This document shows positions 37,522 through 44,636 of a DNA stretch of 50,218 nucleotides, one piece after another. Position 1 is the stretch's first letter, and every line of letters begins with the position of its first letter. A program made the position numbers and the translations under genes. Origin of the DNA: Candidatus Nomurabacteria bacterium (GTDB lineage: Bacteria; Patescibacteriota; Minisyncoccia; Phycocordibacterales; UBA9973); assembly GCA_943356675.1 (NCBI GenBank), contig CALRFQ010000006.1:1-50218 (forward strand). Direction: 5' to 3'. The notes beneath the pieces were generated by a model, which was given only the letters and a program-made list of their open reading frames with translations, was not told the origin of the DNA and ran no database searches.

Positions 37522-40512
37522 CTAATCTTTAAAAATTTTCTCTCCCAATTTGCAGTATGGGCACTCTTCAGAAGTACCTCCCCAAGGCTTAAAATGGCAC
37601 TCACGGCTGACCCAGTTAGCACCTAAGAGTGATTCTCTATATTCTTTTATATCCTTTATAAGTAGGTCAATCTCTTCCTCACCTACATGAGTGCTATATA
37701 TCGCATTATTATCTCCGTCTTTGGCCTCAAGGAAAAGAAGTCTTGAAACTGTCACATCCTTACCCTTCTCGGCGCCTTTTACCAAGTACGAATACATAGC
37801 GAGCTGGCGCATGAAGCTTGAGAGCTTGCCGTCATCATCCATCTTTTCAATTTCGTTTTTTGTTTTTGATTTGCCGGTTTTGAAATCTGTAATCGTCATT
37901 GTAGAGTCCGGGAATCTTTCAGTAAGGTCGAGCTTGCCGTATATAAGTAGCTCAGAATATCTCTCATCGCGGAATTGAAGTGACTTTTCTGAATCGTGAT
38001 CCTTTGCCAAACTCTTATAATAATTCTCCACCCAGAAATCAACGGCTTTATATGCATCCGTAAATAATTTCTTTAATTCCTTTTCGTCATTTACACCTTC
38101 CTTTTGCAATTCGTATTTAATTTTCTCTTTTATGTCAGCTTCTTTTGGTAATTTATTTTCTTTAAGAATATATTCAATAGTACTGTGCACGGTAGAGCCA
38201 AGAGCAAGCGAAGTGCCCTTCACTTCTGGTAGCTTCAAGAAATTACGGAAATACCACTTCCAAGCACATTCAAAAAAGTTATTGAGCAGTGTGACGGAAA
38301 CTTTCGTCTCCATATAATGACCCTTCACGAAGTCGGTCAGATTAATAAGCATATCTTTTTGTTCCTCTGTCACAATCTCTGTATAAACCTTTGGTCCATT
38401 CTTCGTGAGTATCTCGCTCTCTGTAACATCTGCAGATTTTATATTGAAATGATTTTTATCAAGCTCATTTATAATTTGTGCGAGCTCAAGCTCCCCACCC
38501 GTCAGATTCTCACGCGAGTATGAAATAGTACAGAACTCCTTCGCGCGAGTGATCGCCACATAGAGCTCCCTCTTGGCTTCTTCCACGCTACGCTCATTCA
38601 TATGCATTTTCACTTTCTCGGGGAGAGTGAAGCCACCCTTTTTCTCACTCATTAGGGTTTCCTCATTCATATGCCCTATCCAAACGCACTCAAATTGCTG
38701 ACCTTTAGATTTGTGAAGTGTCATCACTTCCACCCCACCAGTATTGGCAAAAGTTGCAAGCTCGATGTGATTGCCATAATCCTTCAAGCGGTCGATATAA
38801 TTTAAGAAATCTTTTATTTTTGCATTTAGGTGCTTAGCCTCAAATGAAAGTGCAAGGTGAATAAAGCTACGCACAACTTCCACATTACAAAGCAGAGTTT
38901 CGTGATCTTTTGATTTATATATAAGAAGTTCATTGCCTATTTCTGCCACTGTATGTGAGATTTTCTCAGCAGTTAGTGTATCCACCCAATTTTTCAAATT
39001 CTTTCCCCAGAGGGCTATATCACTTCCTCCAGCGAAAAGCCCGTCACCCTTTCCATGAGCAATCAAATCATCGATAGTTAATTTATCTGGTTTTAAAGTC
39101 TTTAAGAATTTATGAGCGTCGAGCGGAATTACCCCAGATGTACTGTCGAGAAGTGACTCACAGAGTAGCACAGAATTCATCGGGTCACTCACAATATTTA
39201 ATATCCTATATAAACTTTCAGATTCTTTCGCGCTCCAAAGAGATACTGACTTGCCCATAGAGACTGGTAGCCCCATGTCTTTCAGTATTTGCATAGCAGT
39301 GCGCACATGATGATTCTTTGGCACAAGAAGTGCACACTCTTCGGGCTTTACACCACTTTCAATCTTTGCTTTAAAATATAGTCCGGCACCGATGATCTCA
39401 TCGCGAGGGAAACTATATTCATTTAGATTTATCTTTTCATTCCCATCAATATTGCTATTCAATTTGCCATCAGCAAGGGAGCTCTCAAGTAGTTCATCAG
39501 CCAAAGCAAGAATTGGAGCAGTCGAACGGTAATTTTCAGTAAGAGTAATCTTTTTAGCCTTACCAAAATCTGTCTCAAAGTCTGTAAAATAATCAATATG
39601 TGCACCGGAGAATCCATAGATAAGCTGGCGGTCATCTCCCACTACAAATATGTTTGGTTGTTCCTCGTCTTTCCAAACTGCCTTTAGGAATCTGTTTTGA
39701 ATTTTACTTGAATCTTGATGCTCATCCACTAGTACATACAAGTAATCCTCTTTTATATCCGAAGCCACATCGGGATAATTTTCCACTAGCTTTACCGCAC
39801 ATTCTAAGACATCATCATAATCCATGAACATCAAATCCTTTTTCTTCTCTTCGTAAATACGATAAAATTCCACCACTTCGCGAGTGCGAGACAGTGACTC
39901 AATCTTTTTCTCTACTTCCTTTTTCAATTGACCTTTACTCTCACCACGAGAAGAAATACTTTCTGGATCTTCCTTCAAACTTTTAATATCACAATCAACT
40001 TCAATAAGAAATTCTTCAGGCTTCATTCCTACTCTCTTAAGAAGTGAGATGAGCTGCTTGAGCTCACTGAAGTACATGGAAGGATTTGTGCGTGGGCGAA
40101 TGTAATCCCATTCATTGTCGTGAAGAATTTCATCTACTAAGAAAACAGACTGATCCTCAGTGAGGAGCTCTGGGACTTTAGCAAAATCTAAGAGTTCATA
40201 ATTCTTCTCTACGATTTCGATTGCAAAAGCATGAAATGTGGAAATGTGCACATCGGAAGCGCTATTTCCTATATAGCTCTCCAAACGCTTCTTCATCTCA
40301 TGCACACCAGAATTCGTAAAGGTAAGACACAAAATACCATCGGCTTCAGATAGGCCTTTTGTGAGTATGTTTGCAATACGGAGTGCTAATACTTGCGTCT
40401 TCCCAGTACCAGGCCCTGCTACCACCATTGTAGGCCCTTCTGTGGCCTCCACAGCATCCTTTTGGGCTTTGTTTAGTTTGTTATATTCTGACTTAAATTC
40501 ATTGTCATTCAT
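37522..40512 (-). CDS. UvrD-type helicase with C-terminal RecB-like nuclease domain
   Basis: SF1A DNA helicase for repair or recombination. The start is placed at the ATG at 40512, 6 nt after a TATAAT; an in-frame TTG at 40530 would overlap that box. The 996-residue protein has the Q motif LNKAQKDAV, Walker A GPGTGKT (33-39), Walker B LVDEHQDSS, motif III/IV (FVVGDDRQLIYGFSGA, LTENYRST) and motif VI (VAITRAKE). The last ~260 residues form a PD-(D/E)XK nuclease (LLIYGKLDLTER, ITDFKTGKSK). Cysteines before it (FFECAWKWYF) and after it (ECPYC) are placed like the iron-sulfur cluster of AddB/AdnB-type enzymes. It is probably an end-resection helicase-nuclease in one chain. Confidence 0.88.
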   Translation of the reverse strand: MNDNEFKSEYNKLNKAQKDAVEATEGPTMVVAGPGTGKTQVLALRIANILTKGLSEADGILCLTFTNSGVHEMKKRLESYIGNSASDVHISTFHAFAIEIVEKNYELLDFAKVPELLTEDQSVFLVDEILHDNEWDYIRPRTNPSMYFSELKQLISLLKRVGMKPEEFLIEVDCDIKSLKEDPESISSRGESKGQLKKEVEKKIESLSRTREVVEFYRIYEEKKKDLMFMDYDDVLECAVKLVENYPDVASDIKEDYLYVLVDEHQDSSKIQNRFLKAVWKDEEQPNIFVVGDDRQLIYGFSGAHIDYFTDFETDFGKAKKITLTENYRSTAPILALADELLESSLADGKLNSNIDGNEKINLNEYSFPRDEIIGAGLYFKAKIESGVKPEECALLVPKNHHVRTAMQILKDMGLPVSMGKSVSLWSAKESESLYRILNIVSDPMNSVLLCESLLDSTSGVIPLDAHKFLKTLKPDKLTIDDLIAHGKGDGLFAGGSDIALWGKNLKNWVDTLTAEKISHTVAEIGNELLIYKSKDHETLLCNVEVVRSFIHLALSFEAKHLNAKIKDFLNYIDRLKDYGNHIELATFANTGGVEVMTLHKSKGQQFECVWIGHMNEETLMSEKKGGFTLPEKVKMHMNERSVEEAKRELYVAITRAKEFCTISYSRENLTGGELELAQIINELDKNHFNIKSADVTESEILTKNGPKVYTEIVTEEQKDMLINLTDFVKGHYMETKVSVTLLNNFFECAWKWYFRNFLKLPEVKGTSLALGSTVHSTIEYILKENKLPKEADIKEKIKYELQKEGVNDEKELKKLFTDAYKAVDFWVENYYKSLAKDHDSEKSLQFRDERYSELLIYGKLDLTERFPDSTMTITDFKTGKSKTKNEIEKMDDDGKLSSFMRQLAMYSYLVKGAEKGKDVTVSRLLFLEAKDGDNNAIYSTHVGEEEIDLLIKDIKEYRESLLGANWVSRECHFKPWGGTSEECPYCKLGEKIFKD

Positions 40513-40518
40513 AAGAAT

Positions 40519-40524
40519 ATTATA
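40519..40524 (-). promoter_or_regulatory. -10 box for the helicase gene, overlapping the murD stop
   Basis: TATAAT on the minus strand, 6 nt before the ATG at 40512. The murD stop codon lies within it. Confidence 0.6.
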
Positions 40525-41857
40525 CCGCAAATTTTTTAATATATTCTAAAAATGCATGACCGCGCTCTTCAAAATTCTTGTATTGATTAAAGCTTGCCGC
40601 TGCTGGAGAGAGCACTACTGTACCTCCCCCATTTGTAAGTGTTTCAAAGCAGGCTTTTGTGGCTAATTCCAAATTTTCAAAATATCTATGGTGCACATTA
40701 TCCGTGTGAATATTCTCTAGAGCATCAAAGATTATCTTACCGGATTCATCAATGCAAAATACATATAGCTCTGGCATTTGTGATATTTTTTCTACTAGAT
40801 TATCAAAATGCACATTACGATACTGACCACCTACGATCAAAATGTTTGTTTCCGGAAATGCTTTAAGAGCGGCAAGAGTAGCCTCAGGAATTGTGGAGAT
40901 AGAATCATTCACAAATGTAATTCCTTTATATTCTCCGAGGACTTGTAATCGGTGTGGCAATGATTCAAAAGTATCAAAAGCAAGAAGTAAGAGTGCAGAA
41001 TCTGCACCCATGTAGCAAGCAGCCACTGCGCCGAAGATAAGATTATGCTGCATATGCTCGCCACGAATTGGATTGGGAATTTCCGCGAATGCTTGTGGCA
41101 CAAAAACGAAATCTTTATCTGGAATAGAATCCCAATTTATAATGTGGGACTTCGGAGAATATTTTGCCACCAATTCCTTTGCGCCACTGTCGTCACTTAC
41201 AATTAATATATCATCACTCTTTTGATGAATGAAAATTTGGGCTTTCGCTAAAGTATAACTATCCATATCTTTATAGTAATCTAAGTGCTCAGGGAAAATG
41301 TTAAGTAGTAGTGAGATATGCGGACTTGTGCGAACACCTTGGAGCATATGTGAAGAAAGCTCGTAGACTATTACGGTACTATCCTTTATACGACTCTCAA
41401 CTTCAAATGGTGGCAGGCCAATGTTTCCTACAAGAAGTGCATCCACATTTGAAAGCGTAAGGAAATGATGAATGAAAGTTGTAGTTGTGCTCTTACCTTT
41501 TGAGCCTGTGATGCCTATAGTCTGCTTACTGTATTCACGAAGGAACAAATCTGCTTGAGAAGTTAATTTATCTCCAAGCTTTGAAATCGTTTCAAGCGTA
41601 AGTGGCAAACCTGGGGCCTTAATTATGAGATCATACTTCTCTAGGTTTTCTAAATAATTTTCGCCTAATACGAAATCTATATTATTATCCCCCGCGAAGA
41701 TTTTATAATTTTGAACTTCTACATTTTTATCTGCAATATTTATATGCTGGTCTTCCGCGTAGCGGCGAATGTATGAGTAAGAGGACTCTCCCTCCTTGCC
41801 AAAACCAAGGATTAAAATATTTTTGTATTGTTTTATATTTTCCCAAATTTTATTCAT
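40520..41857 (-). CDS. murD: MurD-type ligase (UDP-MurNAc-L-Ala:glutamate), probable MurD2
   Basis: Cytoplasmic peptidoglycan-precursor ligase. The 445-residue protein has an N-terminal Rossmann-like domain, the Mur central domain with ATP loop GITGSKGKSTTTT (GSKGKST 118-124), VYELSSHMLQGV, LLLNIFPEHLDYY and VNDSISTIPEATLAAL, and a C-terminal domain with ILIVGGQYRNVHF. MurD normally adds D-Glu. Because the frame overlaps a MurL-type epimerase gene by 8 bp, this one may be MurD2-type and add L-Glu, with MurL inverting it afterwards. The specificity is inference from context. Confidence 0.9.
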   Translation of the reverse strand: MNKIWENIKQYKNILILGFGKEGESSYSYIRRYAEDQHINIADKNVEVQNYKIFAGDNNIDFVLGENYLENLEKYDLIIKAPGLPLTLETISKLGDKLTSQADLFLREYSKQTIGITGSKGKSTTTTFIHHFLTLSNVDALLVGNIGLPPFEVESRIKDSTVIVYELSSHMLQGVRTSPHISLLLNIFPEHLDYYKDMDSYTLAKAQIFIHQKSDDILIVSDDSGAKELVAKYSPKSHIINWDSIPDKDFVFVPQAFAEIPNPIRGEHMQHNLIFGAVAACYMGADSALLLLAFDTFESLPHRLQVLGEYKGITFVNDSISTIPEATLAALKAFPETNILIVGGQYRNVHFDNLVEKISQMPELYVFCIDESGKIIFDALENIHTDNVHHRYFENLELATKACFETLTNGGGTVVLSPAAASFNQYKNFEERGHAFLEYIKKFAV

Positions 41858-43247
41858 GGCAAATTATTTTTTGTGCTTTTTTAATAATTTCTAAAAATTC
41901 TGGTGGTAATAAGTTTTCATTAAATTCACACATATACTTATAGTAAGTACCAGATACAGGAATGATATCTTTATGTGCATTATAAAATTCAGCAAGTAAT
42001 TGTTCATTTAATGAATCGGGTCGTTTATATATTTCAGAAAGTGCGGCCAAGCATTCTCCAGTAGTCCCTACACAATCAAAGGGTTTTGTGTTTTTAAGTC
42101 CAGTAAGCTCAAGCAAGGTTTCCATATTGCCTCTATTATAAAACATATTTACTCCAATAATTCTGGTAGCGTATTTAACATCCCAAACAGCAGAAAACAT
42201 TAAAAAAGCAAAAAGGCATTTAGGACATTCACCACACCAGAGTTTTTTCATTGACGATTTATTGCAGCTGGATATAAAACGCATCATCCAATCATATCTA
42301 GGAAGTAATGAAACTATTCCCACTTCAGTAAGTGGCCTTAGAAAACTAAAATATTTAGGCCCATCTGGCCAAATTGTATTTAAATACTCACTTAAACTCT
42401 TTTCAAACTCAAAAGATTTTGAATATTGGTGATTAATATCAGTACCTTTTACAGTCGGCTCATTAGCACTTGCTTCATTTGAAACAATAAAATATTCCTT
42501 ATTTCTTAAACTCGATGTAAATAATCCAATAAAAGCTACTACAATAGAGAATGGTGTATGCCCATTTAACGCGCCTTCCTCATTTATTAATAATAATTTT
42601 GGGTTTATATTTCTTATAACAGTTGTCCTAATAATATCGTGGGACCTAATAGCCCAAAGCACATCTTCAATATAACTCTTCGGGTTGATCATGAAAATCT
42701 CGTTATCTTCTTCTGCTGAATCATTTAAAATTCCAAGAGTAAGAGAAGAATCCTTTCCACCAGTAAAACCGACAAGATTTCCTTTTAGTGAGCTAAATGC
42801 ATGTCTTATATTTTCTTTTTTAATATTTAGAGAACAAATAATTTCTACCCAATCATTTTGGTCCACAGATAATAATCCATTTAAATAACGAAATTCACCA
42901 GTACCTCTGTACCAAATATTTTTCCACCAGTTTATTTCATACTCAGTTAATTTTCCACATTTAATATTAAAAGTTGGTGAACAATATGCCTTCCAATAAC
43001 TTAGTGACTCAATAAGTCCGATTCGAAAAATATAATCCTCGTTAATTCTTATTAAATCCTCAGAAACTGAATCAGGAAGATTAATATCTATAGTTGAGGT
43101 TACTGTATTTTCCGTAGAGTAAGAAAAAACAAAAGAAAGAGTAATTAAACTACCTTTCAAAGTCCATGAGTAAGAATCATAGGAAAATACTGGGTAATTA
43201 GCCCGGAAATCATCAAATTTGGCCTTATTTTCTACAACATCTACCAT
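41850..43247 (-). CDS. murL: Probable UDP-MurNAc-L-Ala-L-Glu epimerase MurL
   Basis: The 465-residue protein carries a PP-loop ATP-binding motif, GFTGGKDSSLTLGIL (TGGKDS 162-167), and a Cys cluster LWCGECPKCLFAF (C338, C341, C344). MurL (EC 5.1.1.23) uses ATP, releasing AMP and PPi, to convert the L-Glu of UDP-MurNAc-L-Ala-L-Glu to D-Glu; it works after MurD2. A PP-loop protein with these motifs and an 8-bp overlap with a murD-family gene fits that role well. The alternative is another PP-loop enzyme such as an amidotransferase-like or tRNA-modifying protein, but there is no tRNA-binding domain and the neighbour is a Mur ligase. The gene lies 11 bp after the M24 peptidase gene. The codon choice is more AT-rich than its neighbours. 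Confidence 0.72.
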   Translation of the reverse strand: MVDVVENKAKFDDFRANYPVFSYDSYSWTLKGSLITLSFVFSYSTENTVTSTIDINLPDSVSEDLIRINEDYIFRIGLIESLSYWKAYCSPTFNIKCGKLTEYEINWWKNIWYRGTGEFRYLNGLLSVDQNDWVEIICSLNIKKENIRHAFSSLKGNLVGFTGGKDSSLTLGILNDSAEEDNEIFMINPKSYIEDVLWAIRSHDIIRTTVIRNINPKLLLINEEGALNGHTPFSIVVAFIGLFTSSLRNKEYFIVSNEASANEPTVKGTDINHQYSKSFEFEKSLSEYLNTIWPDGPKYFSFLRPLTEVGIVSLLPRYDWMMRFISSCNKSSMKKLWCGECPKCLFAFLMFSAVWDVKYATRIIGVNMFYNRGNMETLLELTGLKNTKPFDCVGTTGECLAALSEIYKRPDSLNEQLLAEFYNAHKDIIPVSGTYYKYMCEFNENLLPPEFLEIIKKAQKIICHE

Positions 43248-43258
43248 ATAGTCCTATT

Positions 43259-43951
43259 CTAGCATTTTATAGAAATTAATTCCTTATTTGACTTTGTGAG
43301 CACTTTTGGGCCTGCTTTCGTGATAACTATAGTGTCTTCTATGCGCATACCGTACTTACCCTTCACATAGAGGCCTGGCTCAATAGTGATAACCATCCCC
43401 TCCTTCAAAATTGATTTTGTATCTTTATAAAATATTTTTGGATTCTCGTGAATTTTCGTGCCGACACCGTGACCAAGAGTGTGAATGAAATATTTCCTTT
43501 CGCTTCCTAAGAGTGCACGGGCCTGCGCATCAAGAAGTCCCGCGACTGTGCCTTCGCGAGACAACTTCACACATTCTTTCTGTACTGAAAGTAATTTATT
43601 ATAAATTTCTTTCTCTTCCTTACTTGGAGTGCCGATATATATCGTGCGAGTCATGTCTGACATAAATCTCTCGTAAATTACACCGAAGTCTATTATCACG
43701 AAACCCTTGAGCTTATTCTTCGTTGGATCGGGGTGGATCTCACTACCCGCGGTTTTCCCGCTTGTGACTATCGGTGGGAAGCTCGGCCTTAAGCCAGCCT
43801 TTTTTATTTCTTCCAAAATAAAATCCCGAAGCTCAATCTCTGTAATAATACATAGGTCCGTCCTATGTATTATTTTAGTGAAAATTTTGTCAGTCGCCTG
43901 GCATGCTTTTGTTACTTTTTCTATTTCAAATTTTTTTTTAATTATTGCCAT
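43259..43951 (-). CDS. M24-family metallopeptidase (Xaa-Pro aminopeptidase-like)
   Basis: Pita-bread-fold peptidase, 230 residues, consisting of the catalytic domain only. The five metal ligands are in place: D88 and D99 (IIDFGVIYERFMSDMTRT), H161 (HTLGHGVGTKIHE), E191 (ITIEPGLY) and E205 (MRIEDTIVI). It resembles aminopeptidase P/prolidase more than MetAP. Residues 26-36 (KIIHRTDLCII) are encoded by a 31-bp palindrome where relatives usually have a helix turn before TEIELRDF, so this appears to be an inserted in-frame repeat. It overlaps the upstream methyltransferase gene by 14 bp and is followed 11 bp later by murL. Confidence 0.88.
   Translation of the reverse strand: MAIIKKKFEIEKVTKACQATDKIFTKIIHRTDLCIITEIELRDFILEEIKKAGLRPSFPPIVTSGKTAGSEIHPDPTKNKLKGFVIIDFGVIYERFMSDMTRTIYIGTPSKEEKEIYNKLLSVQKECVKLSREGTVAGLLDAQARALLGSERKYFIHTLGHGVGTKIHENPKIFYKDTKSILKEGMVITIEPGLYVKGKYGMRIEDTIVITKAGPKVLTKSNKELISIKC
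43844..43874. repeat. Palindrome inside the M24 peptidase gene
   Basis: Arms AATAATACATAGG (43844-43856) and CCTATGTATTATT (43862-43874) are a perfect 13-bp inverted repeat around TCCGT. Its core TAGGTCCGTCCTA differs by one base from the core of the intergenic palindrome at 27910-27924 (TAGGTCCGACCTA). The insertion keeps the reading frame. Confidence 0.7.
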
Positions 43952-44636
43952 TTTTCTTTAAGTACATTATGAAATAATCACGCTTGTATATGCGGTCATC
44001 GTATGTAGTGTAGCCAGACTTTTTCTCTAGCTTAATTATTTTAAAATATTTACCATATAACTCTGTGATATCTTCCCTACTGAAAACTCTCTCTACTAAG
44101 CCGAGCTTCCTTAGCACATATGTGTCCTTCTCGCGCCCAGGATCGCTAGCAAGAAGTGCCTTCACATTTTTATTGCCATCTTTGCAAAGTGCACGCACAA
44201 AGATATATCCATCATCTTTAAGTACGCGATTCATTTCAGAAAGATATACTTCCCGACCAGCTTCATCGAGAGAGTTTGAAGCTGTGACATCGATGATCAC
44301 ATCGACTGCCTTGTCTTCTATAGCATACGGCATTCCTATATCTCCGAGCCTGTAGTCCACGACTGCACCCATTTCTTTTGCACGAGCTTTTGCTATTTCA
44401 AGAGCAGTTAAAGAAATTTCAATTCCGATCACAGTATTTCCTTTATCTGCAATGTAATTCGAATTCCTACCAGTTCCACAACCAAGATCAAGCACTACTC
44501 TATCTTCCACACGAAACTTCTCTTCCTTTTTCAAATACTTCAAAAAGCGCAAAGTGTCGGCTTGCGGTTCACTACCCTTCGTTACAAACAAAGGATTCTT
44601 ATATTCTCTTTCCCATTCACTTTTTTGATTTGGCAT
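43938..44636 (-). CDS. Class I SAM-dependent methyltransferase
   Basis: Rossmann-fold methyltransferase of 232 residues. Motif I VVLDLGCGTGR (residues 48-57), the acidic end of strand 2 (VIGIEIS), VVDYRLGDIG and the motif IV region (VDVIIDVTASNSLDE) are visible. The general fold is of the UbiE/Methyltransf_11/25 type; substrate cannot be inferred. It is the first gene after tRNA-Ser on this strand and overlaps the M24 peptidase gene by 14 bp, so it probably belongs to the methyltransferase-M24-murL-murD transcript. No Shine-Dalgarno sequence is present. Confidence 0.85.
   Translation of the reverse strand: MPNQKSEWEREYKNPLFVTKGSEPQADTLRFLKYLKKEEKFRVEDRVVLDLGCGTGRNSNYIADKGNTVIGIEISLTALEIAKARAKEMGAVVDYRLGDIGMPYAIEDKAVDVIIDVTASNSLDEAGREVYLSEMNRVLKDDGYIFVRALCKDGNKNVKALLASDPGREKDTYVLRKLGLVERVFSREDITELYGKYFKIIKLEKKSGYTTYDDRIYKRDYFIMYLKKNGNN

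Follow-up and report, generated by a model that had tools for sequence, protein, structure and literature searches.

The MurL-MurD gene pair

The window, that is, the whole 50,218-nucleotide stretch analyzed here, comes from contig CALRFQ010000006.1 (assembly GCA_943356675.1) of a Candidatus Nomurabacteria bacterium, a member of the phylum Patescibacteriota (below, the phylum). It carries two overlapping genes encoding a PP-loop protein and a MurD-type ligase (Table 1). We read this pair as a MurL/MurD2 route to the D-glutamate (D-Glu) of peptidoglycan that replaces glutamate racemase, and put the probability of this reading at about 0.92. The two genes meet in the junction tgcCATGAATAAaatt, where the MurL gene ends with CAT GAA TAA and the MurD gene begins with ATG AAT AAA. 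The 465-residue PP-loop protein and its 8-bp overlap with a MurD-family gene, as described in an earlier inspection of the letters without database searches (the sequence-only reading), were confirmed to the base, and the TGGKDS and CGECPKC motifs named there were found at residues 162–167 and 338–344. From its position, the overlap likely couples the translation of the two genes.

Table 1. Positions of the gene pair and its neighbors in the window.
Feature	Position	Strand	Evidence
MurL, PP-loop protein, 465 aa, ATG start	41850-43247	-	profile, motifs, predicted model
MurD-type ligase (MurD2), 445 aa, ATG start	40520-41857	-	TIGR01087, specificity residues
8-bp overlap ATGAATAA, MurL stop/MurD2 start	41850-41857	-	direct sequence reading
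M24 metallopeptidase (PepQ-like)	43259-43951	-	PF00557 E 3.9e-52
S-adenosylmethionine (SAM) methyltransferase, left-hand anchor of swap site	43938-44636	-	68% identity to G163 copy (locus L168)
UvrD-type helicase/nuclease, right-hand anchor of swap site	37522-40530	-	60% identity to G163 copy

Identity of the PP-loop protein

The PP-loop protein matched the NCBIfam family NF041275 (MurL) with an E value of 2.3e-50 and 171.4 bits over residues 71–426. Its only further NCBIfam match was a 14-residue stretch, so that MurL was the sole credible family. The annotated MurL of Xanthomonas sacchari shares 28% identity with it over 339 aa. Both proteins of the pair match curated families (E 2e-50 for MurL and 6e-92 for the ligase), and their pairing is not a chance one: a MurD ligase partner, adjacent or fused, was found in 28 of 30 MurL loci of the phylum, the window locus included.

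The window MurL was aligned with 28 relatives from the phylum, 40 relatives from named genomes (mostly Bacteroidales and Bacillota) and X. sacchari MurL. Its motifs are TGGKDS (162–167), NHQYSK (272–277), PFDCVG (389–394) and the cysteines 328, 338, 341 and 344. The invariant positions were GGKxS (163–167), GHxP (229–232), NHQxSK (272–277), E258, E308, C328, C338, C341, C344, C392 and E398. The PP-loop reads TGGKDS in the window and GGGKDS or GGGKES in the aligned relatives.

Specificity residues of the ligase

The ligase scored 309 bits against TIGR01087 (MurD), over the cut-off. In Xanthomonas MurD2, mutagenesis showed that Glu197 and Arg358, which correspond to Asp182 and Lys348 of E. coli MurD, set the specificity for L-Glu, and the E. 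coli residue K319 was found to be important too (PMC8788868). An alignment of the window ligase to E. coli MurD (L157) and X. sacchari MurD2 (L158) shows Glu, Ile and Arg at the E. coli positions 182, 319 and 348, a combination identical to that of X. sacchari MurD2. This E-I-R triplet was also present in 71 of 76 MurL-linked ligases from outside the phylum, the remainder being D-I-R. Within the phylum, position 348 was Arg in 24/25 MurL-linked ligases and Lys in 29/30 ligases sampled by score; the lone exception in that sample (L143) is itself MurL-linked.

In a quick tree of MurD with support from the SH-like approximate likelihood ratio test only, the window ligase fell inside the MurL-linked group (branch 95*), nearest to L042 and Bacteroidales MurD2. 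About three changes of MurL linkage were counted on this tree (without L033, a row from a murI locus). The residues and the grouping support the assignment of the window ligase to the MurD2 type.

The order of the two genes is reversed in L016 and L022, where MurD lies upstream of MurL; L011 is mentioned alongside them. The MurDs of L016 and L022 nest among the canonical ones in the tree, and the L022 ligase retains a Lys348-type residue. MurL may thus have paired independently with an ordinary MurD.

D-Glu supply in the genome and in the phylum

The genome is a 719-kb draft in 25 contigs, 98.5% complete. Absences were judged by six-frame profile searches of the genome, and control genomes were positive in each search. 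No glutamate racemase murI (TIGR00067), no member of the Asp/Glu-racemase family (PF01177), no class-IV (D-amino-acid) aminotransferase (PF01063) and no second MurD above cut-off were found in the 719 kb; the window ligase is the only MurD. MurC, MurE, MurF and PBP2 are present, together with an Ala_racemase_N-family protein that is probably Alr. Because of these genes and the single MurD, the organism very likely makes a cell wall, and the window ligase must supply its Glu step.

The relation between the two D-Glu routes was followed in 287 genomes of the phylum (0.4–2.0 Mb; thresholds E <1e-15 for MurL and E <1e-30 for glutamate racemase). MurL was found in 44 of them (about 15%) and glutamate racemase in 89, and no genome had both. 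Thus murI was present in 0/44 MurL genomes versus 89/243 others (Fisher p 1.9e-8); among the 219 murD-positive genomes the exclusion gave p 1.1e-11. Both p values are indicative, since the genomes are related. Seven of 148 genomes in the order of the window carried MurL.

The swapped locus

A genome of the same genus (G163) has murI and lacks MurL, and its murI occupies the chromosomal slot that the pair fills in the window. The window locus reads methyltransferase, M24, MurL, MurD2, UvrD, PheS, PheT; the G163 locus (L168) reads methyltransferase, REP-type transposase-like gene, murI, UvrD, PheS, PheT, with the UvrD gene directly downstream of murI and without the M24 gene. The identities between the two genomes are 68% for the methyltransferase, 60% for UvrD, 60% for PheS and 45% for PheT. 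In L042, from a 700-kb genome, an M24 gene (50% identity to that of the window) lies immediately upstream of MurL (48%), MurD2 (46%) and MurC, and the M24 gene may travel with the pair. The simplest reading of these gene orders is that an M24-MurL-MurD2 block replaced murI at this site; we infer this direction, and the reverse one, murI replacing the block, is also compatible with the data.

The transposase-like gene next to murI at the swap site (L168:3317-4012) resembles REP-associated tyrosine (Y1) transposases. The murD match of G163 was weak (E 2.3e-27), and its MurD may lie outside the draft or be divergent.

In the MurL, MurD and joint trees, the window pair stood on the Bacteroidota/Bacillota side. 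A tree uniting all pairs of the phylum was not rejected by the approximately unbiased (AU) test (p 0.46, with L042 assigned to the phylum by assumption), so Bacteroidota are a possible donor of a horizontally transferred pair. The G+C content is 0.32–0.33 over MurL (41500–43500) and 0.38–0.41 in most flanking genes, which is consistent with a foreign origin of the segment but is not proof of it.

The five genes of Table 1 are tightly packed. The methyltransferase and M24 genes overlap by 14 bp, and 11 bp separate the end of the M24 gene from the start of MurL. Because all of these genes lie on the minus strand, a single transcript covering M24, the methyltransferase and the pair is plausible from the gene layout. 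The UvrD-type gene, named from its motifs with no profile search behind the name, is followed downstream by a short open reading frame and then PheS and PheT. A DUF1189 protein is also encoded among the genes beside the pair.

Fusions and wider distribution

MurL and MurD were joined in this order in a single frame in 8 of the 30 MurL loci of the phylum (L007, L010, L019, L020, L024, L025, L027 and L028), giving proteins of 731–907 aa. Further fusions were found in L122 and L125 (from the taxonomic order of the window) and in L109 and L114 (Bacteroidales), and all fusion polypeptides span 731–942 aa. Parsimony placed six changes of the fusion state on the MurL tree, so that fusion arose several times. 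Fused MurL and MurD, found in several lineages, suggest that the L-Glu intermediate is passed directly between them.

More than 570 MurL relatives were found in named genomes when an alignment was used as the query; a single-protein query had found none. The 80 relatives that we kept include Bacteroidales, Marinifilum, Lachnospiraceae, Ruminococcus flavefaciens, Pseudobutyrivibrio xylanivorans and Erysipelotrichaceae, and MurD lay directly downstream of MurL in about 76 of them. Glutamate racemase was above cut-off in none of 20 tested Bacteroidales and Clostridia genomes with MurL; 14 of these had one MurD above cut-off and six had two. The six (G430, G431, G436, G439, G442 and G443) likewise had no murI above cut-off, and one MurD of each is presumably the MurL-linked copy.

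In the literature, MurL/MurD2 is confined to a small number of gamma- and alphaproteobacterial genera and to rare actinobacteria, and the pair has been presented as a narrow-spectrum drug target (PMC8788868). MurL orthologues of low similarity have been reported in a fungus, cyanobacteria and an amoeba (PMC5808125). The pairs found here, in a reduced-genome phylum and in Bacteroidales and Clostridia (many Bacteroidales, Lachnospiraceae and Ruminococcus), lie well outside that published range, and both the distribution and the narrow-spectrum claim therefore need revision. In the open full-text literature, we found no paper on MurL in the phylum or in the Bacteroidales or Clostridia groups.

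Predicted fold and proposed chemistry

The AlphaFold2 model of the window MurL had a pLDDT (predicted local distance difference test) score of 92.1. Its best match among solved structures was QatC of the qatABCD defence system (Z 18.5, 325 residues, 4.0 Å), followed by QueC (Z 13.6 and 12.5) and Cap9 (Z 11.9). This ranking came from a second look with VIA-align; with Foldseek alone, no E value under 0.04 was obtained. By sequence, no MurL was found in the PDB, and the profile matches there were the PP-loops of TtuA and MnmA. QueC binds zinc through a C-x8-CxxCxxC motif (PMC13329287), and the zinc-site cysteines of QatC are C334, C354, C357 and C360. The four invariant cysteines of the window MurL, spaced C-x9-CxxCxxC, resemble this zinc site.

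QueC-type enzymes activate their substrates with ATP. The MurL of X. oryzae uses one ATP, forms AMP and works only in the L-to-D direction; its authors proposed adenylation of the α-carboxylate and described the protein as lacking known domains. According to our model, MurL has the QueC/QatC adenylating fold, which supplies the domain reported to be lacking. The release of AMP described for MurL is in line with the predicted PP-loop/QueC fold, and the PP-loop agrees with an ATP-dependent, one-way L-to-D epimerisation by the window protein. We are inclined to accept that MurL belongs to the QueC/QatC adenylating superfamily. On this view, its route would count among the major ones to D-Glu, being present in about 15% of the sampled phylum genomes and in Bacteroidales and Clostridia. 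Two 2026 papers on the QueC family do not mention MurL.

We infer the following catalytic activities. MurD2 would add L-Glu to the wall precursor, and MurL would then flip this L-Glu in place. The PP-loop of MurL would adenylate the free α-carboxylate of the bound L-Glu, converting ATP to AMP and pyrophosphate. Adenylation would acidify the Cα hydrogen, possibly via an oxazolone, so that the centre could be inverted, and ATP cleavage would make the inversion one-way. On chemical grounds, an N-acyl-Glu adenylate should epimerise easily, perhaps via an oxazolone.

Weighing of the alternatives

Several observations weigh against the MurL/MurD2 reading. The 171.4 bits of the window MurL do not reach the curated cut-off of NF041275, 700 bits, which was set for a Xanthomonadales equivalog; at 28% identity, the protein falls outside the Xanthomonadales subfamily as expected from its sequence. 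The window ligase is about equally far from X. sacchari MurD2 (28% identity) and E. coli MurD (26%), and Glu182 alone is not diagnostic, since it also occurs in 9 of the 30 ligases that make up the canonical sample, including one that is MurL-linked. The draft state of the genome could in principle hide a murI gene, and uptake of D-Glu from a host is compatible with the sequence. In one alternative, the ligase is a usual MurD that adds D-Glu supplied by a host cell or by an unrecognized racemase, and the PP-loop protein is otherwise employed. Scavenging is common in small genomes of this kind. Moreover, 89 of the 219 murD-positive phylum genomes have neither murI nor murL; at least some of these must obtain D-Glu in a different way, perhaps by a transaminase, from a host or through some other enzyme. 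We consider this alternative unlikely, because the specificity residues of the ligase are of the MurD2 type, MurL and MurD are genetically linked, through the overlap in the window and through fusions in other genomes, and murL and murI are mutually exclusive.

Another possibility is that the PP-loop protein is an enzyme of the QatC/QueC type whose target is a protein or a nucleobase, acting in defence or tRNA modification. The structural ranking, with QatC at the top, speaks for it, whereas the profile, the partner and the co-occurrence indicate MurL; a Pfam scan at E 0.1 gave no QueC family (PF06508), and no Qat or Que gene was recognized beside the pair. No PADLOC match to the pair was obtained either, and a QatC-like defence role was rejected on this ground; the possibility as a whole is very improbable. 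Even less probable is that the pair epimerises Glu on another amino-acid-bearing glycan or glycopeptide instead of the wall precursor. Two Pseudonocardia plasmids (L159, L161) carry MurL-like genes without an annotated MurD neighbor, near MinD/ParA-like genes and, in L161, also a WD40 gene, and the fold may thus have other uses; the second MurD in six of the 20 Bacteroidales and Clostridia genomes could be read in the same way. In the window genome, however, the sole MurD stands beside MurC, MurE and MurF, so the wall must use it, and in L042 murC directly follows the pair.

The MurL/MurD2 reading agrees with what the sequence-only reading had proposed, namely that wall D-Glu is made by the MurL route without a racemase; the profile match, the MurD2 residues and the missing murI and transaminase support it at the level of sequence. 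The profile search named MurL and no different characterized family, the ligase grouped with MurL-linked ligases and has the MurD2 signature, and the genome-wide search found neither murI nor a D-amino-acid transaminase.

Comparison with known systems

The closest characterized system is the pair of Xanthomonas oryzae (MurL, XOO_1319; MurD2, XOO_1320); the nearest annotated homologue used here was murL/murD of X. sacchari (NZ_CP010410.1). The Xanthomonas and window pairs share the gene order, an overlap (20 bp there and 8 bp here), the MurL motifs and the Glu/Arg pair of the ligase, and the X. oryzae genome, as reported, likewise lacks murI and a D-amino-acid transaminase. In contrast, each window protein is only 28% identical to its counterpart, the window MurL is below the Xanthomonadales cut-off, and the host genome, of 719 kb, belongs to another phylum, one of reduced genomes. 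Upstream of MurL lies the M24 peptidase in the window, but a hypothetical gene and an aspartokinase/diaminopimelate decarboxylase in Xanthomonas.

With QatC, QueC and Cap9 (type IV CBASS, the cyclic-oligonucleotide-based antiphage signalling system), the window MurL shares the predicted fold (over 325 residues for QatC), the PP-loop GGxDS and four cysteines including CxxCxxC, which are preceded by C-x9 in the window MurL, C-x8 in QueC and C-x19 in QatC. It differs from them in having no sequence-level family match, in its Mur ligase partner and in the MurL-specific motifs NHQ[YW]SK, GHxP and PF[ED]CVG. QatC is encoded with qatA, qatB and qatD, and none of these was recognized beside the window pair. 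The structural match, as far as the model holds, gives MurL a testable mechanism and would add a cell-wall branch to the QueC/QatC superfamily, which was surveyed in 2026 without MurL.

In the canonical MurI and MurD pathway, free Glu is racemised before ligation. In the MurL route, ligation of L-Glu comes first, its epimerisation takes place on the nucleotide peptide, and one additional ATP is spent. The locus of G163, where murI fills the slot of the pair, lets the two D-Glu routes be compared directly in nature within one genus.
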